Shown here: positions 39,617-56,333 of the stretch, one piece after another | Position numbering within the stretch: position 1 is the stretch's first letter | Layout of the letters: every line of letters starts with the position of its first letter | NCBI GenBank assembly: GCA_018065985.1 | Contig: JAGHSF010000009.1 | Span: forward strand, 1 to 64,000 | From: Candidatus Cryptobacteroides choladohippi | GTDB taxonomy: Bacteria; Bacteroidota; Bacteroidia; Bacteroidales; UBA932 | Length of the DNA: 64,000 bases | Reading direction: 5' to 3' | Notes under the pieces: model-generated | Databases searched by the model: none | What the model saw: the letters and a program-made list of their open reading frames with translations, nothing else | What the model was told of the DNA's origin: nothing | Position numbers and translations under genes: made by a program

Positions 39617-39648
39617 TATGTTTTATGAATAATAGTGTTTTGCATAAT

Positions 39649-42084
39649 ATGAGAAAATTTTTGATTGTCTCCATTTCTTTGGCGTTGCTCTGCGGCTTTT
39701 CAGTAGAAGGACAGGCTCAGATGAAGGATGAAGATGTCATCGCCTATATCAAGAGCGGCATGGCTGCCGGCAAGGGAGAGAAGCAGATCGGTGCTGAACT
39801 TCTTGCAAGAGGAGTGACCCGCGCCCAGGCTGAACGTATCAAGGCCGGGCTTGAGACGGGAACAGGAACCGGTATCGGAACCGGTACTGCAGAAAGTTCT
39901 GAAACCACAAAGCCCACTCATGTCATGCGGGAACGCAAAACTGATGAATCCGAACTCGGTGTTGCTGATGATACAGATATGTTCGCTGCAGAAACGGCAG
40001 ATGCCGCCAACTCTTCGGAACCCCGCATCTACGGTCACAATGTTTTCAATGGCAAGGCCCTGACTTTTGAGCCTAACGAGAACATGGCCACCCCGGAGAA
40101 TTACAAGCTTGGTCCTGGCGACCAGGTGATCATCGAACTCTGGGGCTTCAACGAGGCCACATACAATCAGACCATTTCTCCAGAGGGCCGCATCACAATC
40201 AGCCAGGTCGGTCCTATCTATCTCAGCGGCCTTACGATCAAGGAGGCCCAGGCGAAGATCCGCAATGTCCTCAGGTCCAAATATGCCAGCATAGACGGTG
40301 CCCAGACCGAGGTGAGCCTTACTCTCGGCAATATCCGTTCCATCCAGGTGAACATGATGGGTGAGGTTGCGGTTCCTGGTACTTACCGCCTTTCATCCTT
40401 CTCTACCGTGTTCCATGCACTTCACCGTGCTGGAGGCGTGACCGATACCGGTTCCCTCCGCGGAATCAAGGTCATACGTGGTGGCAGGGAAATCGCAACC
40501 GTCGATGTATACGGCTATCTTTTCACCGGCAAGTCCGAGTCTGATATCCGTCTCGAAGAGGGTGATGTCGTTCTTGTGCCGCCCTATATCAAGATTGCCA
40601 CTGTAGAGGGTGGTGTCCGCCGCCCCATGAGCTATGAGCTTGCTGCGAACGAGACTCTAGCCGACCTTGTCCGCTATGCCGGAGATTTTACCGGCAATGC
40701 ATACAAGGATGATATATCCATTGTCCGCAATACAGGGCGCGAGCAGGAAATATTCACGGTATCCAGTGACCGCATGAAGTCATGTGTCATGGAGGATGGC
40801 GATGTCGTCACCATCGGCAGCAGCCTCGACCGTTTTGCCAACAGGATAGAGATCCGTGGCTATGTGTTCCGTCCCGGAATGTTCCAGCTTGGATCTGACA
40901 TCAAGACTGTAAAGCAGCTTGTCGAACGTGCCGGAGGCCTTACTGAAGATGCATTCCTGGACAGGGCAATCATCATGCGTGAGATGGCTGATCTCACTCT
41001 TGAGACAGTGTCATTCGATCTTGGCGCAGTGTTGAAGGGAATAAATGCCGACATCGCGCTCAGGAAGAATGACGTTGTGATCATCTCCGGAATCCATGAA
41101 CTGGAGTCCAGAGGTCCGCTTTCAATCAATGGCCTTGTCGCCAATCCTGGAGAATATCCGTTTGCGGAAAATACGACAATAGAAGACCTTATCCTTCAGG
41201 CCGGAGGACTGCTCAATGGCGCTTCTGCCGCCCGTGTGGAAGTTGCGCGCCGGGACATCGATCCCATGAGCCTCACCCCTTCGGATACCCTTGGCAGGAC
41301 CTTTACATTTTCATTGGAGAATGGTCTTGCCGTCGGCTCAGGACACGGTTTCATTCTTCAGCCGTACGATGTGGTCTCAATTCGCCGGAGCCCGGGATTC
41401 GTTTCGCCCCAGCATGTTGTCGTCGAAGGCGAGGTTGCTTTCCCCGGCAGCTATGTGCTTCTCACCAAGGATGAAAGGATTTCCGACGTGATAAAGCGCG
41501 CAGGTGCCGTGACGGCCCATGCCTACCTCAAGGGCGGAGTCGTTGTTCGCAAGACTTCTGACGAGGAACTTACTCTGAACTCCACTACCCGCAAAATGGT
41601 AAATCAGGGCGGTGGCCGTGACTCCGTTGATGTCAGCAAGCTGTCTTTTGCCAACCAGTACACGCTGGGAATCGATCTGGCAAAGGCTGTTGCCGAGCCT
41701 GGTTGTGACGATGATATCATACTCAGGGATGGAGACAGGATCATAGTTCCTGAGTACCTGAGCACCGTCAGGATACAGGGAGATGTGATGTACCCCAATA
41801 CTGTCCTCTACCATCCGGACAAAGGCATGTCGTATTACATCGATGCTGCCGGCGGCTACGGATCAAAGGCAAAGCGTAGCAAGGTGTATATCATATACAT
41901 GAATGGAAATGTGACAAAGGGCAGCAAGCTTAACGCCAAGATAGAGCCCGGTTGCGAGATTGTGGTTCCCACACGCAGGGAAAGGCGTGAACTCTCAACT
42001 GCAGAAATCTTGTCGATGGGTTCTTCTGCTGCATCCCTGACTACGATGATTGCCACGATTGTTTCTCTATTGAAAAAAATATAA
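39649..42084 (+). CDS. SLBB-domain polysaccharide export protein (Wza-like)
   Basis: About 811 residues. I start at MRKFLIVSISLALLCGFSVEGQAQ, a clear signal peptide; the ORF track adds eight residues. A coiled N-terminal region is followed by the Poly_export domain (YKLGPGDQVIIELWGFNEATYNQTISPEGRITISQVGPIYLSGLTIKEAQ) and then several SLBB repeats (VNMMGEVAVPGTYRLSSFSTVFHALHRAGGVTDTGSL; IEIRGYVFRPGMFQLG; SINGLVANPGEYPFAENTTIEDLILQAGG; VVVEGEVAFPGSYVL; VRIQGDVMYPNTVLYHP). Much longer than E. coli Wza, as in other Bacteroidota. Forms the outer part of the export channel with the downstream Wzz-like protein. Confidence 0.88.
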   Translation: MRKFLIVSISLALLCGFSVEGQAQMKDEDVIAYIKSGMAAGKGEKQIGAELLARGVTRAQAERIKAGLETGTGTGIGTGTAESSETTKPTHVMRERKTDESELGVADDTDMFAAETADAANSSEPRIYGHNVFNGKALTFEPNENMATPENYKLGPGDQVIIELWGFNEATYNQTISPEGRITISQVGPIYLSGLTIKEAQAKIRNVLRSKYASIDGAQTEVSLTLGNIRSIQVNMMGEVAVPGTYRLSSFSTVFHALHRAGGVTDTGSLRGIKVIRGGREIATVDVYGYLFTGKSESDIRLEEGDVVLVPPYIKIATVEGGVRRPMSYELAANETLADLVRYAGDFTGNAYKDDISIVRNTGREQEIFTVSSDRMKSCVMEDGDVVTIGSSLDRFANRIEIRGYVFRPGMFQLGSDIKTVKQLVERAGGLTEDAFLDRAIIMREMADLTLETVSFDLGAVLKGINADIALRKNDVVIISGIHELESRGPLSINGLVANPGEYPFAENTTIEDLILQAGGLLNGASAARVEVARRDIDPMSLTPSDTLGRTFTFSLENGLAVGSGHGFILQPYDVVSIRRSPGFVSPQHVVVEGEVAFPGSYVLLTKDERISDVIKRAGAVTAHAYLKGGVVVRKTSDEELTLNSTTRKMVNQGGGRDSVDVSKLSFANQYTLGIDLAKAVAEPGCDDDIILRDGDRIIVPEYLSTVRIQGDVMYPNTVLYHPDKGMSYYIDAAGGYGSKAKRSKVYIIYMNGNVTKGSKLNAKIEPGCEIVVPTRRERRELSTAEILSMGSSAASLTTMIATIVSLLKKI

Positions 42085-42089
42085 TTCCC

Positions 42090-43220
42090 ATGGCAGACCA
42101 ATTCGACGAATACTACGAGGAAGAGTATAGTGAGATAGACATAATGGCACTCCTTATGAAGCTTTTCTCCTATTGGAGAAGATTGCTTATTTGGGTTGTC
42201 ATTGCAGCAGTACTAGGCCTGATTATAGGATACAGTATTCCCAAAAGTTATACGGCACATGCTGCACTTGCTCCCGAGATTGCACAGAAATCAAGCAGCA
42301 GCATGAGTTCTCTGGCTGCTCTTGCCGGTTTCAACTTGAACAATATGACCGTGACGGATGCCATGTACCCTGATCTCTATCCAGAGATTGTGAACTCAGT
42401 TCCTTTCACGGTGGACCTCTTCGATATGCCTGTTACGATTCTTGAAAAAAAGGACACAGTCAAGACAGACCTCTATGATTATTTGTTGAATCATTACAAG
42501 ACGCCATGGTGGTCCAGTGTCATTGGCCTCCCGTTCAAAGTGCTGGGATGGGTGAAGAATATCGGTAAAGAGAAAGAGGATGATGCTACCGGACATGCTG
42601 AAGTTGACCCTTACCATTTGACGATAGAACAGGGAAGGATAGTCAAGGCACTTGGGGCCAGCATTTCCATTGCTGTTGAGAAGAAGACCTACCTTATCTC
42701 AATTTCGACTACTGCTCAGAATCCCAAGGTTGCTGCTGACCTCTGCCAGCTTGTGGTGGAAAACCTTCAGAAATATGTCGTGAACTACCGTACTGAGAAG
42801 TCCCGTCATGACCTTGCATACTACCAGCAGCTGAACGAGCAGGCGCAGAAGGAATACTACGATGCCCAGCAGCGTTATGCCCGTTATGTTGATGCCAACC
42901 AGGGAGTAGTGTTCCAGCGTGTGCTCATTGAACGTGAACGCCTTCAAAACGAAGCCAACCTCAAGTATCAGGTTTATAATACTACGTCTCAGCAGGTCAA
43001 CAGTGCAAAGGCCAAGGTGCAGATGGAAACTCCCGTATGTGCAGTTATTCAACCTCCTACCATCCCTCTGAAGCGCTCCAAGCCTTCAAAGGCCAAGATA
43101 CTTGTTGCCTTCATGTTCCTTGGGTTCTGCTTCGGGTCCGTGTGGTATCTCTGGGGGCAGGATATTGTTGCCAAACTTCGTGGCAAGGACGACGAATCTG
43201 AAACATCTTCTGAATCATAG
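42090..43220 (+). CDS. Wzz/PCP-type chain-length determinant protein
   Basis: 376 residues. An acidic cytoplasmic start, first membrane helix LIWVVIAAVLGLIIGYSIPKSYTAHAALAPE with the Wzz proline-rich signature, a large periplasmic coiled-coil region (RHDLAYYQQLNEQAQKEYYDAQQRYARYV), then PPTIPLKRSKPSKAKILVAFMFLGFCFGSVWYLW, the second helix. No fused tyrosine-kinase domain. It sets glycan chain length or couples the flippase and polymerase to the export channel. It follows the SLBB gene by 5 nt. Confidence 0.88.
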   Translation: MADQFDEYYEEEYSEIDIMALLMKLFSYWRRLLIWVVIAAVLGLIIGYSIPKSYTAHAALAPEIAQKSSSSMSSLAALAGFNLNNMTVTDAMYPDLYPEIVNSVPFTVDLFDMPVTILEKKDTVKTDLYDYLLNHYKTPWWSSVIGLPFKVLGWVKNIGKEKEDDATGHAEVDPYHLTIEQGRIVKALGASISIAVEKKTYLISISTTAQNPKVAADLCQLVVENLQKYVVNYRTEKSRHDLAYYQQLNEQAQKEYYDAQQRYARYVDANQGVVFQRVLIERERLQNEANLKYQVYNTTSQQVNSAKAKVQMETPVCAVIQPPTIPLKRSKPSKAKILVAFMFLGFCFGSVWYLWGQDIVAKLRGKDDESETSSES

Positions 43221-47127: not shown

Positions 47128-48132
47128 ATGCTTAACAACAAATCGGTCCTCATTACCGGAGGAACAGGCTCTTTCGGAAAGAAGTTCGTCGAGACAATTC
47201 TCCGCGATTACCCCAATGTGAAACGCATCGTGATATATTCACGCGGCGAACTGAAACAGTTCCAGATGAAGCAGCTCTATCCTGAGTCCAAATATCCTCA
47301 GCTCCGCTATTTCATCGGCGATGTCCGCGATGCCGACCGTCTGCGCCGTGCCTGCGAAGGGATTGACGTCATCATTCACGCCGCTGCCATGAAGCAGGTC
47401 GATACCGCCGAGTACAATCCTGATGAATGCATAAAGACCAATGTAGGCGGTGCCCAGAATGTGATCAACGCAGCACTCGACTGCGGAGTTCATGACGTTG
47501 TGGCCCTTTCCACAGACAAGGCCTGCGCCCCGATCAACCTCTACGGCGCGACGAAACTCACTTCTGACAAGCTCTTCGTCGCTGCGAACAATATCTCAGG
47601 ATGCAAGGACATCCGCTTCTCCGTGGTCCGTTACGGCAATGTTATGGGTTCCCGCGGTTCCGTCATCCCGTTCTTCATCTCGAAGAGAGACTCAGGCGCG
47701 ACGGAACTTCCCATCACTGATGCACGCATGACCCGTTTCAACATCTCCCTTCAGGCAGGTGTCGACCTTGTGATGTTCGCCCTCAAGAATCACCTTGGCG
47801 GCGAGATATTCATCCCCAAGATCCCTTCGTACAGAATAGGCGATGTCGCTACGGCCATCGCTCCCGGCCTCAAGCAGGTCGAGATAGGCATCCGTCCCGG
47901 CGAGAAGCTCCATGAGGAGATGCTGACCGCAACCGATTCGCTCAATACCATCGACCTTGGCCGCTACTATGCCATCCTTCCTTCCCGTTCATTCAACGGA
48001 AAGCGCTCGAAGGAGGATTACATCCAGCACTACAATGCAAAGCCCGTCCCCGAGGGATTCAGCTACAGCTCCGATTCCAACGAGGAGTGGGAGACTGTCG
48101 AGTCCTTGAGGGAAAAAATCGCCAAGCTTTAG
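47128..48132 (+). CDS. pseB: UDP-GlcNAc 4,6-dehydratase (5-inverting)
   Basis: 334 residues. First step of pseudaminic-acid-type synthesis: UDP-GlcNAc to UDP-2-acetamido-2,6-dideoxy-beta-L-arabino-hex-4-ulose. NAD-binding GGTGSFGKKF, IHAAAMKQVDTAEYNPDECIKTNVGG and STDKACAPINLYGATK with the catalytic D-K and Y-x3-K elements are diagnostic of PseB/FlaA1. It opens a plus-strand operon with short gaps and overlaps (3 nt to pseC), behind its own -7 box. Confidence 0.93.
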   Translation: MLNNKSVLITGGTGSFGKKFVETILRDYPNVKRIVIYSRGELKQFQMKQLYPESKYPQLRYFIGDVRDADRLRRACEGIDVIIHAAAMKQVDTAEYNPDECIKTNVGGAQNVINAALDCGVHDVVALSTDKACAPINLYGATKLTSDKLFVAANNISGCKDIRFSVVRYGNVMGSRGSVIPFFISKRDSGATELPITDARMTRFNISLQAGVDLVMFALKNHLGGEIFIPKIPSYRIGDVATAIAPGLKQVEIGIRPGEKLHEEMLTATDSLNTIDLGRYYAILPSRSFNGKRSKEDYIQHYNAKPVPEGFSYSSDSNEEWETVESLREKIAKL

Positions 48133-48135
48133 AAA

Positions 48136-49302
48136 ATGATAGATCATCCTATCTCATACGGACATCAGCTCATAACCGAAGAGGACATAGCTGCCGTAGT
48201 CGAGGCCCTGAAGTCGGACTACATGACCCAGGGGCCCCGCATCGTCGAGTTTGAGAAGACATTCGCGGACTATCTCGGATGCTCGTATGCCTGCATGGTC
48301 AGCAACGGTACGGCCGCGCTCCATCTCTGCGCGCTGGCGCTGGGCATAAAGCCGGGTGACAAGGTGATCACGACTCCTATCACCTTCGTTGCCAGTGCGA
48401 ACGGGTTCAGGTATCTCGGGGCCGAGATCGTATTCTGCGACATCGACCCCAAGACATTCCTTCTCGACCTTGACAAACTGGAAGAGATACTTAAGGCATC
48501 ACCCAAGGGAACATACAAGGCTGTCGTTCCTGTCGATTTCGCCGGCTATCCCATAGATGAGGAACGCCTCAGGGCACTGTCGCGCGAGTATGGCTTCGCC
48601 ATCGTGGTGGATGCATGCCACGCACCTGGCGCATGGTTCACCGATTCGAAGGGCCGCAGGTGCAAGGTAGGGGCCTGCGATTATGCTGACCTCACCTGCT
48701 TCTCCTTCCATCCGGTCAAGCATATCGCCACCGGTGAGGGTGGGGCTGTCACGACAAACAATCCCGAGCTGTACAAGCGCGTAAGCCTATACCGCACACA
48801 TGGTGTGACCAAGGATCCCGCCCTTCTGACCCGTAACGAGGGTGGATGGTACTATGAGATGCAGGAACTGGGGTACAACTACCGCATCACCGAGATGCAG
48901 GCCGCTCTCGGAATGACCCAGCTGAAGCGTCTGGACTGGAGCGTAGCGCGCCGCAATGAGATTGCCCGCCGCTACGATGCCGCCTTTGAAGGCTCCGAGG
49001 TGGTTTCACCCTATCGGGCTGATGACATATACCACGCTTTCCATCTCTATATGATCCGCGTACCGGAGGAGAAGCGCAAGGGCCTGTACGATTTCCTGCG
49101 CGCCCGCAACATCTTCTCTCAGGTCCTCTATATCCCTGCCCACCTGATGCCTTACTACCGTCAGTTCGGATGGAAAGAAGGGGACTTCCCGGTGGCAGAG
49201 GATTATTATAAGCACTGTCTCGCACTTCCCATGTTCCCTTCACTTACCGATGAGGAGCAGGAATGGGTGATAGAGAGCGTCAAAGCCTTTTTTGAGAAAT
49301 GA
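48136..49302 (+). CDS. pseC: UDP-4-amino-4,6-dideoxy-beta-L-AltNAc transaminase
   Basis: 388 residues, PLP aminotransferase of the DegT/DnrJ/EryC1 family, second step of the pathway. The GTAALH loop, VVDACHAPGAWF and the PLP-lysine motif CFSFHPVKHIATGEGGAV (K about 195) are visible. ISYGHQLITEEDIAAVVEALKSDYMTQGP is the PseC-type start. It overlaps pseF by 4 nt. Confidence 0.93.
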   Translation: MIDHPISYGHQLITEEDIAAVVEALKSDYMTQGPRIVEFEKTFADYLGCSYACMVSNGTAALHLCALALGIKPGDKVITTPITFVASANGFRYLGAEIVFCDIDPKTFLLDLDKLEEILKASPKGTYKAVVPVDFAGYPIDEERLRALSREYGFAIVVDACHAPGAWFTDSKGRRCKVGACDYADLTCFSFHPVKHIATGEGGAVTTNNPELYKRVSLYRTHGVTKDPALLTRNEGGWYYEMQELGYNYRITEMQAALGMTQLKRLDWSVARRNEIARRYDAAFEGSEVVSPYRADDIYHAFHLYMIRVPEEKRKGLYDFLRARNIFSQVLYIPAHLMPYYRQFGWKEGDFPVAEDYYKHCLALPMFPSLTDEEQEWVIESVKAFFEK

Positions 49303-49973
49303 AGAATCTGGCGATAATACCTGCCAGAGGCGGCAGCAAGCGCATACCCCGGAAGAACATCAAGCCCTTCCTGGGGAAGCCCATTATCGAATACTCCATA
49401 GAAGCAGCCCTGCAGAGCGGCCTTTTCGACGAGGTGATGGTCTCGACCGATGACCCTGAGATTGCCGCGATAGCTCAGCGTGCCGGCGCAAAGGTCCCCT
49501 TCCTGAGGTCTGCGGAGACTTCAGGCGATCACGCGGGGCTCGCTGATGTCATCAGCGAGGTTGTTGCAGGATACAAGGATGCCGGCAGGGAATTCGACAA
49601 CTGGTGCTGCATACTTTCTACTGCTCCCTTTGTCACGGGAGATCTTCTCAAAGACACCTTCGAGGTATTCAGTGAAGGTGGTTTTGATACACTCCGTCCG
49701 GTTGTGCGCTTCTCATATCCCATCCAGCGTTCATTCCGCAAGGATGAGAATGGCCGCGTCACCTTCATGTTCCCTGAGTATGCCTCTGCACGCTCCCAGG
49801 ATCTGGAACCCGCATTCCACGATTCCGGCCTTTTCTACTGGGGAACGGTGGAAAAAGGTTTCGGCGGGAACAGCTGGGGAGCCGTGGAAATAAGCGAACG
49901 CTTCTGTCAGGACATCGATACCGAGGAAGACTGGAAGATGGCGGAGCTCAAATTCAGACTGCTTGACAAATGA
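49299..49973 (+). CDS. pseF: CMP-pseudaminic acid synthetase (cytidylyltransferase)
   Basis: 224 residues. IIPARGGSKRIPRKNIKPFLGKPIIEYSIEAALQSGLFDEVMVSTDDPEIA is the CMP-NulO synthetase signature. Activates the nine-carbon sugar with CTP, the last soluble step. PseF rather than NeuA/LegF is suggested by the neighbouring genes and short length. Overlaps pseG by 4 nt. Confidence 0.9.
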   Translation: MKNLAIIPARGGSKRIPRKNIKPFLGKPIIEYSIEAALQSGLFDEVMVSTDDPEIAAIAQRAGAKVPFLRSAETSGDHAGLADVISEVVAGYKDAGREFDNWCCILSTAPFVTGDLLKDTFEVFSEGGFDTLRPVVRFSYPIQRSFRKDENGRVTFMFPEYASARSQDLEPAFHDSGLFYWGTVEKGFGGNSWGAVEISERFCQDIDTEEDWKMAELKFRLLDK

Positions 49974-50926
49974 CGGTTTTCTACACTGAAGGCGGCCATA
50001 AGCTGGGACTTGGCAACATCTTCCGATCCCTGTCTCTTGCGAAAGCCCTGAGAGACCGCGGTTGCGACGAGATACGTTTCGTCACATCCAGCGAGCCCTA
50101 TGCCTGCAGTTTCATCACTGATGCCGGTTTCGAAGCTGTCATAACCCGGGATCCTCTGTCCGCAATCCTTGATCTGAAACCCCACAGGCTGATAATCGAT
50201 TTCCTCGGGATAGGCAAGGATTTCGTTTCGAGTGCATCACGTGGCGGACAGACCAGAATAATAATCATCGGCAACGACAGCGAAGCCAACCACGAGGCTG
50301 ACCTTGTGGTGAATGCAATCATCGGCACCGGCTTCATCAACCGTTGTTTCAGAGATTCATACGGGACCCTCAACCTCTGGGGGCCAAGATACCTTGTCCT
50401 TCGGGAAGAGTTCGAGAAGCTGAGGGATACCTACCGCCTCAAAGACAGTATCAGGAATGTGGTGCTCCTTTTTGGCGGCAGCGACCAGGCCGACTTTTCC
50501 TCGAAAGTCCTGAATTCCTTTTCGGGGACGGACTATGCGGTCACGCTCATCCTCGGTGCCGGGTATCGGGACGATGAGAGTCTGGAAAAGGTTATCTCTG
50601 ATTACAAGGGAAAGGTTGAAGTGTACCGCAATGTGGGGAATGTCAGCGATTTCTATAAGAAGGCCGACTTCCTTTTCACCTCTCCCGGAACGGCTCTGTT
50701 CGAAGGCCTGTGTATGGGAATCCCTGCAATATCCTTCTTCCAGAACCAGAGCCAGATTGACGTTTTCGGGCCTTTCATGACCACGTGCGTGTATTCCCGT
50801 ACAACGGACCCCGTCGCCATGATGCTCGACGTGTACTCCCACTACGGAGTCTTCCGCTCCAATCTCGAGAGCTTCGCAGTAGGTATGGGAAGGAATGAAA
50901 TAATAGACAATATACTGGCATTATGA
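49970..50926 (+). CDS. pseG: UDP-2,4-diacylamido-2,4,6-trideoxy-altropyranose hydrolase
   Basis: 318 residues of the GT-B-like PseG family. Start FYTEGGHKLGLGNIFRSLSLAKALRDRG matches the G-x-G-H catalytic/UDP-binding region, although the usual GHVMR is changed to GLGNIFR. The C-terminal half has FLFTSPGTALFEGLCMGIPAISFFQNQSQ. Removes UDP to release the six-carbon sugar that PseI condenses with PEP. Overlaps the fusion gene by 4 nt. Confidence 0.85.
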   Translation: MTVFYTEGGHKLGLGNIFRSLSLAKALRDRGCDEIRFVTSSEPYACSFITDAGFEAVITRDPLSAILDLKPHRLIIDFLGIGKDFVSSASRGGQTRIIIIGNDSEANHEADLVVNAIIGTGFINRCFRDSYGTLNLWGPRYLVLREEFEKLRDTYRLKDSIRNVVLLFGGSDQADFSSKVLNSFSGTDYAVTLILGAGYRDDESLEKVISDYKGKVEVYRNVGNVSDFYKKADFLFTSPGTALFEGLCMGIPAISFFQNQSQIDVFGPFMTTCVYSRTTDPVAMMLDVYSHYGVFRSNLESFAVGMGRNEIIDNILAL

Positions 50927-53031
50927 TCATAGTAATCGGCGCTTCCGGCTTCATCGGAACATATCTTACCGACAGTCTTCTCCGAAAAGGATACGATGTC
51001 CTTGCGACGGGACGCAGCCCGAGGGCTGCCCGTTTTTTCGAATCAAGAGGCATCCCTTTCCTTCATCTGGACATCACCCGCCGGGAAGATTTCGACCTTC
51101 TTCCCACAGAAGGGGTGGAGGCGGTGATACTTCTTGCCGCTACGCTTCCTGCCAATGAAGAGGAAGAGAACCCGTACAGGTACATCGCTTCCAATCTCGA
51201 AGGTACGGTGCATGCCTTGGAATACTGCCGCAGGACGGGGGTACGCAAGTTCATCTCAACGACTTCATACGCCGATGTCAGCGGCCATTTCTCTGCCGAC
51301 CATGTCATCGATGATGACGAACTGAGAAGCTACAATCTCGTCGACGACCACTCCGAGTACATCATCACGAAGAATGCCGCGACCGACATGATACTCCATT
51401 ACAACCTCGTCTACGGGCTCCAGGGTTGCATCTTCCGCTTCCCTCCGGTCTACGGCGTGGGACCTCACTCCCAGCTAAGGACCGACGGCGTACTCCGCAA
51501 GTCCGGCTTCCAGATCTTTGTTGACAAGGCAAGCAGCGGAGAAGATCTCGAAGTCTACGGAGACAAGGATGTCGTAAGGGACATAGTCTATATCGAGGAC
51601 GTATGCGATGCCTTCGCGCAGGCGATAGAGTCTGACAGGGCTGCCGGCGTCTACAACATAATGTCCGGCGAGTCTTCTTCCCTTGAGCAGCAGGCCCGCG
51701 ACATCATCGCTGTCTTCGGAGACGGCAAGGGCAGCAAAGTCATCTTCTCTCCCGAGAAGAAGAACAACAGCCGTTCATATCGCTTCAGCATAGAGAAGGC
51801 GCGCAGGGATTTCGGATACAATCCCCGTTTCGTGCCGTTCCGCAAACTCTGCGAGGCCTACCGTGAGGAAATGGAAAATCCCCGTTTCCCTCATCTGCTT
51901 CCAACTCAGACACTTCTGATACTGGGGGCAGGCAGCATACAGGTCCCGATTATCAGGAAAGCCCGCGAGGCAGGTTTCCGCACAGTTGTGGCAGACTATG
52001 ACCCCAAGGCGCCCGGATTTGCATATTCTGATGTGAAATCCACGGTCAGCACTGTTGATTTTGATGCGGTCCTCGGCCTTGCCCGCGCTGAGAACATCGA
52101 CGGCATACTCACGACGTCTGAGTACCCGGTCAACGTTGTCGCGTACGTTGGTGAGGCACTTGGTCTGCCGTCCATGTCACGCGAGGTCGCCTCTGTATGC
52201 ACGAACAAGCTGCGCCAGCGGGAAATTTTCGCCGCGAACGGCCTCAATGTCCCGTTCTTCAAGCTGATTTCGGAAACCGACCCGCTTGAACCGTATGCCG
52301 ACTTCCCATATGTGGTCAAGCCGGTTGACTCTTCGGCCAGCCGCGGGGTCACCCTTGTAAGGGATGCCGCAGAGCTGAAGAAGGCCGTGGATTTTGCGCG
52401 TGAGTATTCCCGCTCCGGCAAGGTGCTGCTCGAGAGCGTAATAGGAGGCTCCGAGTTCAGCGTGGAGACGCTTACCCAGAACGGTGAGACCCATATAGTG
52501 AACATTACCGAGAAGGCCACCAGAGGCGATGGCTGTTTCGTCGAGGATACCCACATCGAGCCTGCGCGCATCAGCGAGGCCGAATGGAAGATCATCAGCG
52601 ATGAGGTGCTTCGCGGAATCAAGGCCATAGGACTCGACAACTGTCCCTCCCATACAGAGGTCAAGCTCTGGAACGGCCGGGCCTACATAATAGAGATGGC
52701 ATGCAGACTGGGCGGAGACTATATCACGAGCGACCTCGTGCCTCTTTCAACGGGCGTCGACATGCTCGGCAACCTTATCAATCTCGCCCTTGGCAGGAAG
52801 ATAGATGCGGAACCCAGATTCTCCAAGTGTTCATGCGTGCAGTTCCTCAATGAGTCGAACTACTCAAGGGCCGTCGAGTTCATCAATTCCGGTGATTCCC
52901 ATATCGTCCGCAGCGAGGTCCTTCCGTACAGTGCAGACCCCATCCTTGATTCGGGCGGACGGCTCGGCTATGTGATCCTTCAGGCTGAGAGGATGGATGA
53001 GATAGAAGCGATACTTGAAAAAATCAGGTGA
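50923..53031 (+). CDS. SDR epimerase/dehydratase fused to an ATP-grasp ligase, nonulosonate locus
   Basis: 702 residues. N-terminal extended SDR (1-310): GASGFIGTYL, and Y146-IIT-K150 as the active-site pair. C-terminal half (about 325-702): a pre-ATP-grasp Rossmann part (LLILGAGSIQVPIIRKAREAGFRTVVADYD) and an ATP-grasp fold with YVVKPVDSSASRGVTLV, EFSVETL and IIEMACRLGGDY. ATP-grasp enzymes form an acyl-phosphate and join it to an amine or thiol. In a locus lacking PseH this half could N-acylate the amino sugar. The SDR half may epimerise or otherwise modify a sugar. Both roles are inference. Overlaps pseG by 4 nt; pseI follows at 1 nt. Confidence 0.8.
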   Translation: MIIVIGASGFIGTYLTDSLLRKGYDVLATGRSPRAARFFESRGIPFLHLDITRREDFDLLPTEGVEAVILLAATLPANEEEENPYRYIASNLEGTVHALEYCRRTGVRKFISTTSYADVSGHFSADHVIDDDELRSYNLVDDHSEYIITKNAATDMILHYNLVYGLQGCIFRFPPVYGVGPHSQLRTDGVLRKSGFQIFVDKASSGEDLEVYGDKDVVRDIVYIEDVCDAFAQAIESDRAAGVYNIMSGESSSLEQQARDIIAVFGDGKGSKVIFSPEKKNNSRSYRFSIEKARRDFGYNPRFVPFRKLCEAYREEMENPRFPHLLPTQTLLILGAGSIQVPIIRKAREAGFRTVVADYDPKAPGFAYSDVKSTVSTVDFDAVLGLARAENIDGILTTSEYPVNVVAYVGEALGLPSMSREVASVCTNKLRQREIFAANGLNVPFFKLISETDPLEPYADFPYVVKPVDSSASRGVTLVRDAAELKKAVDFAREYSRSGKVLLESVIGGSEFSVETLTQNGETHIVNITEKATRGDGCFVEDTHIEPARISEAEWKIISDEVLRGIKAIGLDNCPSHTEVKLWNGRAYIIEMACRLGGDYITSDLVPLSTGVDMLGNLINLALGRKIDAEPRFSKCSCVQFLNESNYSRAVEFINSGDSHIVRSEVLPYSADPILDSGGRLGYVILQAERMDEIEAILEKIR

Positions 53032-53032
53032 T

Positions 53033-54043
53033 ATGCATACAATGATAGTGGCCGAAATGTCCGGCAACCACAACGGCTCGCTCAAGAAGGCTGTTGAAAT
53101 CATAAAGGCGGCGAAACAGGCCGGGGCTGATGCAATAAAGCTTCAGACCTATACTGCTGACACACTCACTCTTGACTGCCACAAGCCGGACTTCATGACC
53201 AACCCCAAAGGACCATGGGCCGGCAGGACCGCATATTCCCTCTATGAGGAGGCGCACACCCCCTGGGAGTGGCACGAAGAACTCTTCCGTGTGGCCCGAG
53301 AGGAAGGTATCCTGTGCTTCTCCTCTCCTTTCGACAGAAGTGCGGTGGACTTTCTCGAGTCTCTTGGCAATCCCATCTACAAGATAGCATCTCCCGAGAT
53401 AACGGATATTCCTCTGATTGAATACGTTGCCTCAAAGGGAAAGCCGGTTGTATTCTCGTCAGGCATAGCCACGCGTGGGGATATTGAACTTGCCCTGTCC
53501 ACCTGCAGGGCTGCCGGCAACGATGACATCACCCTTCTGAAATGCACGACGGCGTATCCGACGCCGCTTCAGGAATGCAACCTCGCCATGATTCCGGAGT
53601 TCGCCAGGACCTTCGGTGTAAAGGCCGGACTGTCCGACCATACACTCGGAAGCCTTGCTCCCATAATTGCCGTCAGTCTCGGCGCGGTGATGGTCGAGAA
53701 GCATTTCATCATAGACCGCAGCGAGGGCGGCCCTGACTCGTCTTTCTCGATGGACAAGGAAGAATTCAGCAGAATGGTGAAGGACATACGCAACGTCGAG
53801 GCGGCACTGGGAAGCAACTCCTTCGATCCGTCCGCCAGCAGCATTGCAGGACGCCGCGACGCCCGTTCGATATACATCGCCAAGCCCATGAAGAAAGGGG
53901 ATACTCTTGACGAAGAGAATCTCAGGGTAGTGCGCCCGGGATTCGGACTTCATCCGAAATATTATAAGGAGTGTCTCGGGAAACGCGTCAACCGCGACCT
54001 CGAACCTGGCGATCCGTTCAGTCTCGACCTTATCGAGCCATAA
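53033..54043 (+). CDS. pseI: pseudaminic acid synthase (NeuB family)
   Basis: 336 residues from ATG 53033. Condenses the free six-carbon sugar with phosphoenolpyruvate to the nine-carbon acid. NeuB-family motifs: IVAEMSGNHNGSLKKAVEIIKAAKQAGADAIKLQTYTADTLTLD, KIASPEITDIPLIEYVASKGKPVVFSSGIAT, KCTTAYPTPLQECNL, GLSDHTLG and EKHFIIDRSEGGPDSSFSM. A C-terminal antifreeze-like SAF domain (SIYIAKPMKKGDTLDEENLRVVRPGFGLHP) completes it. AEMSGNHNGSL and ADTLTLD point to PseI rather than NeuB. It converges with the GT30-like gene (14-nt overlap). Confidence 0.92.
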   Translation: MHTMIVAEMSGNHNGSLKKAVEIIKAAKQAGADAIKLQTYTADTLTLDCHKPDFMTNPKGPWAGRTAYSLYEEAHTPWEWHEELFRVAREEGILCFSSPFDRSAVDFLESLGNPIYKIASPEITDIPLIEYVASKGKPVVFSSGIATRGDIELALSTCRAAGNDDITLLKCTTAYPTPLQECNLAMIPEFARTFGVKAGLSDHTLGSLAPIIAVSLGAVMVEKHFIIDRSEGGPDSSFSMDKEEFSRMVKDIRNVEAALGSNSFDPSASSIAGRRDARSIYIAKPMKKGDTLDEENLRVVRPGFGLHPKYYKECLGKRVNRDLEPGDPFSLDLIEP

Positions 54044-55208
54044 TCCTTGCCACGATCTTTCCGGCGGCCCCGCTTCCGTCAAGGCAGTACCGCAGAGCGG
54101 CCTCTCCGGACTCCTTCAATTTCTCCGGATTGTTCCGCAGGGAGTCGTACCAGGCTGCAAGCTCCTCCGAATTGCCGATCGAAAATCCTGCTCCGGCATC
54201 GATCATGGCCTGGCAGTGACAGTATGAACCGAACAGGGGACCGTAACTGACGGGCATCCCGTATGATGCCGGCTCAAGAATGCTGTGGGGCGAGCAGTCG
54301 AATCCCGAGCCCACATAAGCTGCGAAACCATAGCGATAGAGCTTTGCAAGCATTCCTATCGTGTTGACTATGAGTACGTTGGCATTTTCGTCGCCCGGCT
54401 TGAATTCGGAATAAACAGCGCAGCTGACCTTCAGCCGGCTTTTCAGGGCTTCAACATCCTCTTTCCCGATTTCATGGGGTATGATGAGGAATTTGTCATC
54501 GGGGTGGGAGTTGGCCAGGTCGCATATGACAACGCTGTCTTCGTCCTGCAGTGTGCTTCCGGCAACGAATACCTTTTTACCTCCGCACCACTTGTCGACG
54601 GTCTCATCCCTCCACTCTGTCTGGGAAAGGGCTATCACCCTGTCCATTCTCGGGTCTCCCGTTACCGTGACGTGCTTCACACCGATGCCTTCCATCAATT
54701 CCCTGGAATTGCTGTCCCTTACAAGAATCTCGGTAAAGCAATTGCGGAATGCGGCCCTGTAGGGGAAAGCCTTGGGCTTGAACCACGACATCCATGGCAC
54801 GAAGCATGCCGATACAAGGTAGGTGGGAATCTTTCTCCGCCTCAGACCGCCAAGGAATCCTAGCCAGAAATCGCTTATGCTGACCAGGCACTTCACCGGC
54901 CTTACTATATTGAAGAACCTGATACGGTTCCAGAAGAAGTCAAGCGGGAGATAGTATGCATAATCAAGGACGGGGTCGTCCTTCAGATGCTCGTATCCGG
55001 AAGGGGAGAAGAATGTTGCGAGCAGCTTGTAGTCGGGATAATCCCTGCGGATCATCTCCAGCACGGGCCTGATTTCCTCGAACTCCCCATAGGAACATGA
55101 GTGGACCCAGATGATGTTTCCAACACCCTCAAGCTCTGATTTCATGCGCCGGAACTGTCCGATACGTCCGGAGATGAATTTCCTTGCTTTTTCAGACAAT
55201 ATCGGCAT
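54030..55208 (-). CDS. GT30/WaaA-like ulosonic acid transferase, short N-terminus
   Basis: 392 residues resembling 3-deoxy-D-manno-octulosonate (Kdo) transferase. IIWVHSCSYGEFEEIRPVLEMIRRDYPDYKLLATFFSPSGYEHLKDDPVLDYAYYLPLD corresponds to the WaaA acceptor half, including the conserved E of the GEF motif, and GYAAYVGSGFDCSPHSILEPASYGMPVSYGP to the donor half. The usual first about 30-40 residues with a membrane anchor are absent: the frame opens MPILSEKARKFISGRIGQF. Either the genome's Kdo transferase or a paralogue that transfers the nonulosonate made by the facing operon. Overlaps the FemAB-like gene by 17 nt. Confidence 0.75.
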   Translation of the reverse strand: MPILSEKARKFISGRIGQFRRMKSELEGVGNIIWVHSCSYGEFEEIRPVLEMIRRDYPDYKLLATFFSPSGYEHLKDDPVLDYAYYLPLDFFWNRIRFFNIVRPVKCLVSISDFWLGFLGGLRRRKIPTYLVSACFVPWMSWFKPKAFPYRAAFRNCFTEILVRDSNSRELMEGIGVKHVTVTGDPRMDRVIALSQTEWRDETVDKWCGGKKVFVAGSTLQDEDSVVICDLANSHPDDKFLIIPHEIGKEDVEALKSRLKVSCAVYSEFKPGDENANVLIVNTIGMLAKLYRYGFAAYVGSGFDCSPHSILEPASYGMPVSYGPLFGSYCHCQAMIDAGAGFSIGNSEELAAWYDSLRNNPEKLKESGEAALRYCLDGSGAAGKIVARIMAR

Positions 55209-56235
55209 TGTATTCTATTCTTGAAGTGATCCTTGGGATTTCGATGCTTCGGAAACCTCTCTGGTACTTTGATATCTCGCTGATCTTGAACTGCCCGGCA
55301 TCACCGTCCTTGGGGTATCTGTTCGAGCCTGTTTCGTAGAACTCGATACCCTGGCTCTTGAGGTACTTGATGGTGGTGAACTGGATTATGTATCCGCCGT
55401 GTCCGTTCAGCATCATGGAATCCATTGTTGCGAAGGAGGCGTAGTACGCGGCCTTTTTGTATATCATTATCAGTGCACCTGCAGTATAGGCGCCCTTTTC
55501 TTCCTGATAGAGCATTGTAAGGCAGCCCATCCCGGAAAGTATCCACTCGTACATGCACTCCCATGATGCGTCGGTCCGCGTCTGGCGTCCTGCGTCGAAG
55601 ATGTGTATCTCCTTGAACCGTGCCATTATTTCAGGAGTGATGTTGCTCCTGTCGAAGACGTCGACGTGGTAGCCGGGTTCCTTGAGAACCTGCTTTATCG
55701 CGGCCTTGTGCCCTTTTCTCATCAGACGCACTATGGTGTCGATATCAAGCCTGAGATCCACTATGTTCGTTGTCTGGAAGCTGACGATTGCGCCGTTCTC
55801 GACACCAGGGACGTTGAAGGGGGTGAAGTCCCTGAAATAGGGATACTCGACGAGGGGATCCAGCATGAACTTGCCGTATGAGATATTGTTCTCACGGGCG
55901 ATGGCAGCAAGCTGTTCGCAGATGAATTCCGCCACTTTCCCGCGGCTTACATCCTCGTCTCTGCGGTAGGCCGGCAGGGGAGTGTAGTCCCCGTACATCG
56001 CAAAGCAGTCGACTGTCCTCTCGGGGTAGCTGTATTCGGCAAGGAGAGGGACGATCGCCTGGATCTTTCCTCCCTGCTTCACCATGAAGGAGAAGTTCCT
56101 TGTATTGGAGTCAAATCTGCAACATGAGGAATACTTCTGCCATGCGGTCGTGTGACGCATCCAGGCCGAATCGGAGGCGAATGCGAACTCGTCCCACTGT
56201 TCCCTGTTGCTTTCGTTCAAGAATTCAATTTCCAT
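55192..56235 (-). CDS. FemAB/GNAT-fold transferase of the nonulosonate locus
   Basis: About 347 residues from ATG 56235 (MEIEFLNESNREQWDEFAFASDSAWMRHTTAW). The C-terminal half with KGHKAAIKQVLKEPGYHVDVFD, GALIMIYKKAAYYASFATMDSM and IQFTTIKYLKSQGIEFYETGSN matches the FemAB-like (lipid II glycyltransferase-type) acyl/aminoacyl transferases. Such proteins, with a GNAT fold, attach amino acids from tRNA or acyl groups to amines. Here it may N-acylate a sugar, complementing the missing PseH; this is inference. Translationally coupled to the GT30-like gene. Confidence 0.72.
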   Translation of the reverse strand: MEIEFLNESNREQWDEFAFASDSAWMRHTTAWQKYSSCCRFDSNTRNFSFMVKQGGKIQAIVPLLAEYSYPERTVDCFAMYGDYTPLPAYRRDEDVSRGKVAEFICEQLAAIARENNISYGKFMLDPLVEYPYFRDFTPFNVPGVENGAIVSFQTTNIVDLRLDIDTIVRLMRKGHKAAIKQVLKEPGYHVDVFDRSNITPEIMARFKEIHIFDAGRQTRTDASWECMYEWILSGMGCLTMLYQEEKGAYTAGALIMIYKKAAYYASFATMDSMMLNGHGGYIIQFTTIKYLKSQGIEFYETGSNRYPKDGDAGQFKISEISKYQRGFRSIEIPRITSRIEYNADIV

Positions 56236-56333
56236 ACTTTCGGGATTGCCCCATGTTCTTTCCACAGGCAAATCCAATCACGAAGATAACCAATTTTGTG
56301 CAAAATTGCCAACGCTCCCGCCGCAGGAACCCA

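Follow-up and report, generated by a model that had tools for sequence, protein, structure and literature searches.

A predicted ATP-grasp ligase in the PseH position of a Bacteroidales pseudaminic acid operon

Introduction

In the canonical route to CMP-pseudaminic acid (PseB-C-H-G-I-F), the amino group installed by PseC is acylated by PseH, a GNAT enzyme that uses acetyl-CoA. That the enzyme acylating N-7 of pseudaminic acid (Pse) can be exchanged is already known: in Acinetobacter, psaGH-type variants swap it to give either the acetyl or the 3-hydroxybutanoyl sugar (Pse5Ac7-3-hydroxybutanoyl) (PMC9676051). Among N-acylated precedents, 7-formamido Pse is known, and N-acetylglycyl and N-[(R)-3-hydroxybutyryl]-L-alanyl groups have been reported on 4-amino-4,6-dideoxyglucose in bacterial polysaccharides (PMC3210612). 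Within the Bacteroidota, Tannerella forsythia makes Pse5Am7Gra, in which the unusual N-7 acyl group is glyceroyl; a pseH gene is annotated there, and the glyceroyl gene has been elusive (PMC6120980). The flagellin cluster of type B Clostridioides difficile (CDR20291_0244-0247) encodes an ATP-grasp protein (PF13535), a FemAB-like protein and a sugar aminotransferase (PMC5207246). Our literature search, which lay mostly outside subscription journals, found no report linking ATP-grasp enzymes to N-acylation of Pse or other nonulosonic acids or to amino-sugar clusters; exchange at N-7 is thus known, and an ATP-grasp variant of it is without a description that we could find.

Here we analyse a 64,000-nucleotide stretch of DNA (the window) from Candidatus Cryptobacteroides choladohippi, a gut-type bacterium, and we think it rather probable that its CMP-Pse operon has the N-acyl group set by the ATP-grasp half of a fusion protein instead of by PseH.

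Results

A pse operon with a fusion gene between pseG and pseI

The operon runs pseB-C-F-G-[fusion]-I, tight and collinear on the plus strand. Four of its products exceed the NCBIfam equivalog cut-offs at this one locus: PseB, the inverting UDP-GlcNAc 4,6-dehydratase (47128-48132; TIGR03589, 527 bits against a cut-off of 408); PseC, the 4-aminotransferase that makes the amine to be acylated (48136-49302; TIGR03588, 477 against 424); PseF, the CMP-pseudaminic acid synthetase (49299-49973; TIGR03584, 263 against 206); and PseI, the pseudaminic acid synthase (53033-54043; TIGR03586, 474 against 340). The UDP-sugar hydrolase PseG (49970-50926) scores 111 bits with TIGR03590, below the cut-off of 154, and is therefore read as a divergent PseG, with which its position and its place in the PseG tree are consistent. 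The first-pass annotation had all five genes present and tightly linked, and this holds for the four equivalogs, with the fifth a probable PseG. Adjacent genes overlap by 4 nt at the C/F, F/G and G/fusion pairs and, given these mostly 4-nt overlaps and its pse neighbours, we treat the fusion gene as a member of the operon. The start of pseI is most likely the ATG at 53033, one base past the stop codon of the fusion; TTG at 53015 is the mechanical call. Upstream, at 39625-43220, lie genes that by eye resemble those for outer-membrane polysaccharide export and chain-length proteins, and similar genes also precede the pse operon of locus L015.

The fusion occupies 50923-53031 (plus strand) as a single uninterrupted frame of 702 codons. 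An extended SDR makes up residues 1-326 (50923-51900) and an ATP-grasp ligase, a predicted carboxylate-amine ligase, residues 327-702 (51901-53031). Pfam finds the NAD-dependent epimerase/dehydratase family (Epimerase, PF01370) at residues 2-246 (E 5e-42) and ATP-grasp_4 (PF13535) at residues 460-602 (E 1e-24), which confirms the SDR–ATP-grasp architecture originally proposed for this 702-residue protein; alignments and the structural model agree for the SDR half, as do alignments, AlphaFold and Foldseek for the ligase half. Residue 326 is roughly where the SDR ends; within a few residues of that point starts a Rossmann-like pre-ATP-grasp domain. For the full-length protein AlphaFold gives a mean pLDDT of 91 and a pTM of 0.69, with both halves confidently predicted.

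No PseH is found in the 93.4%-complete genome

The earlier observation that the locus lacks PseH extends to the whole assembly, which is 93.4% complete: neither the PseH profile TIGR03585 nor Acetyltransf_3 has a match at E<=1e-3, and a PseH domain from the same genus used as query returned nothing better than E 0.06. The same search does detect PseH in another genome of the genus, G604 (TIGR03585, 69 bits, E 4e-19), so we regard it as sensitive. The fusion itself matches no GNAT family in Pfam or NCBIfam, and the four generic GNATs that the genome encodes all lie outside the pse operon. With the profile and domain searches empty and the G604 control positive, we rejected the idea of a PseH hidden elsewhere in the genome, while allowing, at this level of completeness, for a small chance that the gene lies outside the assembly.

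Other proteins fill the PseH slot in related operons

We searched 393 genomes of the order with PseI, then fetched and annotated the loci. The resulting 16 complete operons are the sole sample that is informative on frequency; a second sample came from scanning named genomes with an ATP-grasp alignment, and its loci were thus chosen for having ATP-grasp. We define the PseH slot as lying between pseG and pseI or at the C-terminus of PseG. In the PseI-led operons it holds a GNAT in eight of 16 cases, a formyltransferase-like protein alone in four, an ATP-grasp in three (the window, L036 and L057) and a PglD-like hexapeptide protein in one, and no complete operon of the 16 has GNAT and ATP-grasp together. 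With both samples pooled, ATP-grasp is present in 10 of 23 complete pse operons (7 of the 23 having been selected for it), and only one, L077, also has a GNAT, which is broken. A Fisher test that sets GNAT against ATP-grasp (p 0.03) draws on selected as well as unselected loci, and we place no weight on it.

The ATP-grasp scan added operons from Porphyromonadaceae, Flavobacteriia, Roseivirga ehrenbergii, Paludibacteraceae and other Bacteroidales, as well as more distant NeuB-containing loci in Bacillota. Nine ATP-grasps from pse operons, that of the window included, form a clade (support 99/99) that spans several Bacteroidota groups. In the PseG tree, the window's PseG and six others from ATP-grasp operons form a clade of seven (support 98/95), which would be expected if PseG had adapted to a new acyl group. 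Outside pse loci, more distant ATP-grasps are often encoded directly after a DegT sugar aminotransferase, which fits an amino-sugar acceptor.

In G604, homologs of the genes for a KdtA-like protein (58%), a FemAB-like protein (63%) and PseI (59% identical) lie in the same order as in the window; its PseG is fused to a GNAT, and the SDR and a close ATP-grasp are absent. In L079 (Paludibacteraceae), the operon reads pseB-C-F-(PseG::ATP-grasp)-pseI, with no SDR, GNAT or LbH. The PseG part of that protein nests with GNAT-fused PseGs (support 98/86), implying that the acylating domain was swapped on the same carrier. In L077 the ATP-grasp gene adjoins a GNAT gene whose frame breaks at nine consecutive G. 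These cases support reading the ATP-grasp as a putative PseH substitute that occupies PseH's functional slot.

Several of these loci are of interest in their own right. The PseG::ATP-grasp protein at L079:9020-11140, in a minimal pse operon, is a second independent fusion with this ligase. In L077 (11142-11640; UBA7009), the PseH-like GNAT is broken after the nine G and its C-terminal part continues in another frame, possibly as a phase-variable switch between two N-acyl groups or possibly through an assembly error. Formyltransferase-like proteins occupy the slot in L031, L032, L033 and L058 (Formyl_trans_N confirmed by Pfam in the first three, L058 being assigned by similarity only), suggesting that some Bacteroidota may make 7-formamido Pse. 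Directly upstream of the ATP-grasp in L057 (7769-8719) and L036 (7025-7960) is a family of 311-316 aa with no Pfam match, which by eye may resemble PLP enzymes and could supply the donor.

The ATP-grasp half resembles L-amino-acid ligases

The closest solved sequence is the L-amino-acid ligase BL00235 (3VOT; phmmer E 2e-31), followed by BacD, although identity to both is low (17-24%). The ATP-grasp half is modeled with a pLDDT of 94, and the best Foldseek matches to this model include 4DIM, 3VOT and BacD, with query-normalised TM scores of 0.82-0.84 to 3VOT and BacD; PurK/PurT-type folds score close behind. Using BacD numbering set by the chain of the Trp332Ala mutant (3WO1), in which chain index and residue number are offset by two, we aligned Glu541, His544, Glu579, Glu591 and Arg595 with BacD Glu273, His276, Glu311, Glu324 and Arg328. 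All five are invariant across 17 aligned sequences. Glu579, Glu591 and Arg595 correspond by alignment to the Mg-binding Glu pair and catalytic Arg of ATP-grasp ligases, and Glu273 and His276 of BacD are part of its pocket for the N-terminal amino acid. Since BL00235 and BacD are the nearest relatives and these pocket residues are invariant, the donor is more likely to be an amino acid than a simple or arbitrary carboxylate. The first-pass annotation suggested that the ligase could acylate the 4-amino group of the PseC product with an unusual acid: a non-acetyl N-acyl Pse is still the best reading, PseH being absent and its slot filled, whereas the open choice of acid gives way to a probable amino acid on the strength of the BacD pocket residues.

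The strongest competing explanation also puts the ATP-grasp in the place of PseH but gives it a simple donor other than an amino acid, such as acetate, formate, glycerate or a hydroxy acid; the product would then be an ordinary Pse or one with a hydroxy-acyl group. Related ATP-grasp folds (PurT, 1KJ8, among others) use formate, formyltransferase-like proteins fill the same slot in other operons, and 7-formamido Pse has been described (PMC3210612); the best sequence matches are nevertheless L-amino-acid ligases, with the equivalents of BacD Glu273 and His276 unchanged throughout, and we judge a simple acid unlikely, though well worth bearing in mind. We thus favor an amino-acid-like group, which, judging from these alignments, the Pse sugar probably carries in place of the usual acetyl.

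Accessory acyltransferases and fatty-acid-type genes

Pfam annotation gives the order pseG-SDR-LbH-(MaoC-KASIII-FabG)-ATP-grasp-pseI for L015/L073, L074, L075 and L076, with other small genes in places. An SDR-LbH-ATP-grasp operon is also present in a cultured organism, Roseivirga ehrenbergii KMM 6017. LbH proteins are found in the ATP-grasp operons L015, L072 and L074-L076, and another LbH family in L036, L077 and L078; the window, L079 and L057 are the sole ATP-grasp operons with no obvious alternative N-acyltransferase. As a side observation, the LbH acyltransferase, MaoC, KASIII and FabG genes lie within the pse operons at L015:8761-11743 and L074:6996-9983, and their annotation suggests that the set is likely a dedicated hydroxyacyl-supply module. 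An amino-acid ligase combined with a capping acyltransferase and a small fatty-acid module would explain the accessory genes, although the LbH protein could itself be the N-4 acyltransferase in the species that carry it.

That last option belongs to a broader alternative, in which N-4 is acylated by another enzyme (encoded elsewhere, or LbH in the relatives) and the ATP-grasp makes an additional modification, such as amidation of the Pse carboxylate. It draws on the LbH acyltransferases of many relatives and on the ability of ATP-grasp enzymes to activate any carboxylate, C1 of Pse included, but we consider it distinctly unlikely: the operons of the window, L079 and L057 contain no such enzyme, both the exchange of PseG::GNAT for PseG::ATP-grasp and the swap within the genus point to the same step, and related ATP-grasps follow aminotransferases where a NeuB-type synthase is not seen.

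The SDR half and the fusion

The window's SDR retains its GxxGxxG motif (residues 6-12) and its YxxxK dyad (Tyr146 and Lys150). The dyad is also intact in L078, replaced by Phe/Glu (F..E) in L073-L076 and by Tyr/Asn (Y..N) in L077. In the alignments the dehydratase Thr-Asp-Glu motif is absent (the window reads TTS, and relatives are variable but never TDE), and we therefore rejected a 4,6-dehydratase role. Four ATP-grasp pse loci (L079, L057, L036 and L038) have no SDR, so it is not a required partner of the ligase; for that reason, and given the loss of the dyad in L073-L076, we find no support for treating the SDR as integral to the replacement of PseH. It is probably an accessory sugar-modifying enzyme that in some lineages is no longer a typical oxidoreductase. 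The SDRs of L073-L076 are themselves a curiosity, being conserved in pse operons despite the change of catalytic Tyr/Lys to Phe/Glu.

Among the loci compared, the SDR/ATP-grasp fusion is unique to the window, its relatives having two separate genes, and in L078 these overlap by 4 nt. One could suppose from this that an assembly or sequencing artefact has joined two proteins that are separate in life, but the frame is continuous, there is no long homopolymer at the junction and both domains are modeled confidently, making an artefact improbable. The argument for PseH replacement is independent of whether the fusion is real.

Flanking genes beyond pseI

Two minus-strand genes follow pseI: a glycosyltransferase resembling Kdo transferases of the WaaA/KdtA family (54030-55208; PF04413; 58% identical in L089) and a FemAB-like protein (55192-56277; TIGR04421 at 77 bits, below the cut-off; 63% identical in L089), both of which also lie beside pseI in G604. 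FemAB proteins are GNAT-fold acyltransferases, and the genome has its four generic GNATs; that this neighbor or another GNAT supplies PseH activity, leaving the ATP-grasp unrelated to N-acylation, is nonetheless very hard to credit, since G604 keeps its FemAB alongside a PseH domain and none of the GNATs in the window's genome is PseH-like, and we rejected the FemAB neighbor on the former ground.

Separately, the same genome encodes two WaaA/KdtA-like paralogs, 47% identical, at 54030-55208 of the window and in L088 (G000:C35:1-3937). Each adjoins nonulosonic acid genes (pseI in one case, NeuB plus a CMP-sugar synthetase in the other), and one of them could be a nonulosonic acid transferase. 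A match occurs in 3 of the 40 further genomes sampled from the genus.

Discussion

The sequences themselves show the gene content, the lack of PseH, the replacement in its slot and the conserved fold and motifs; from these we infer the reaction, its acceptor and donor, the order of steps and the role of the SDR as follows. The product would be a CMP-activated Pse in which the PseC-installed amine (numbered N-4 in the hexose and N-7 in the finished sugar) is acylated by the ATP-grasp ligase, a task that otherwise falls to PseH with its CoA-dependent acetyl transfer. With ATP and Mg bound, the ligase would convert a carboxylic acid to an acyl phosphate, from which the acyl group would pass to the sugar amine; the acid is most likely an alpha-amino acid, by analogy with BacD and BL00235. 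PseG, PseI and PseF would complete the pathway. Where related operons encode a hexapeptide (LbH) acyltransferase, in some cases along with KASIII/FabG/MaoC, this enzyme probably caps the amino acid with acetyl or a 3-hydroxyacyl group. The window's operon has no capping genes and may leave its aminoacyl group uncapped. The SDR half probably acts on the same nucleotide sugar as an epimerase or reductase type of enzyme and would not be essential to the ligase step. More tentatively, and with the odds perhaps slightly against so broad a claim, the Bacteroidota may harbor a widespread undescribed branch of Pse biosynthesis that makes amino-acylated nonulosonic acids, with an ATP-grasp amino-acid ligase in place of PseH and, in some species, an LbH enzyme that caps the amino acid with acyl groups supplied by acetyl-CoA or by a small fatty-acid module of its own.

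The N-7 group of Pse is exposed on bacterial surfaces and is not the same in every strain. Should it be set by an ATP-dependent ligase, Pse loci that appear broken for want of PseH would be intact pathways to a different sugar, the rules for annotating them would need a new branch, and enzymes for building amino-acylated sialic acid mimics would become available. The proposal also offers a testable genetic basis for the amino-acid-bearing amino sugars known from bacterial polysaccharides.

Comparison with known systems places the locus as follows. T. forsythia, whose genus the first-pass annotation had offered as an analogy, is likewise a Bacteroidota species whose Pse has an unusual N-7 acyl group, but strain ATCC 43037 has an annotated pseH, absent in the window, its glyceroyl gene is reported as unidentified (PMC6120980) and no ATP-grasp is described there, and we therefore rejected it as a precedent. 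The C. difficile type B cluster pairs an ATP-grasp with a FemAB-like protein, as the window does; no Pse genes are described in it, and the function of its ATP-grasp is putative. BL00235 (3VOT) and BacD/YwfE (3VMM, 3WO1), the nearest solved proteins in sequence and among the top matches in fold, share the catalytic and pocket residues, whereas the window's ligase is encoded in a nucleotide-sugar operon and its predicted acceptor is a sugar amine rather than a second amino acid. The Acinetobacter psaGH variants offer the same kind of swap, a change of N-7 enzyme bringing a different acyl group, but the window's enzyme would be an ATP-dependent ligase of another superfamily. With the canonical CMP-Pse pathway the window shares PseB, C, F and I, together with a probable PseG that scores below its cut-off; where that pathway has PseH, the window has an ATP-grasp fused to an SDR.
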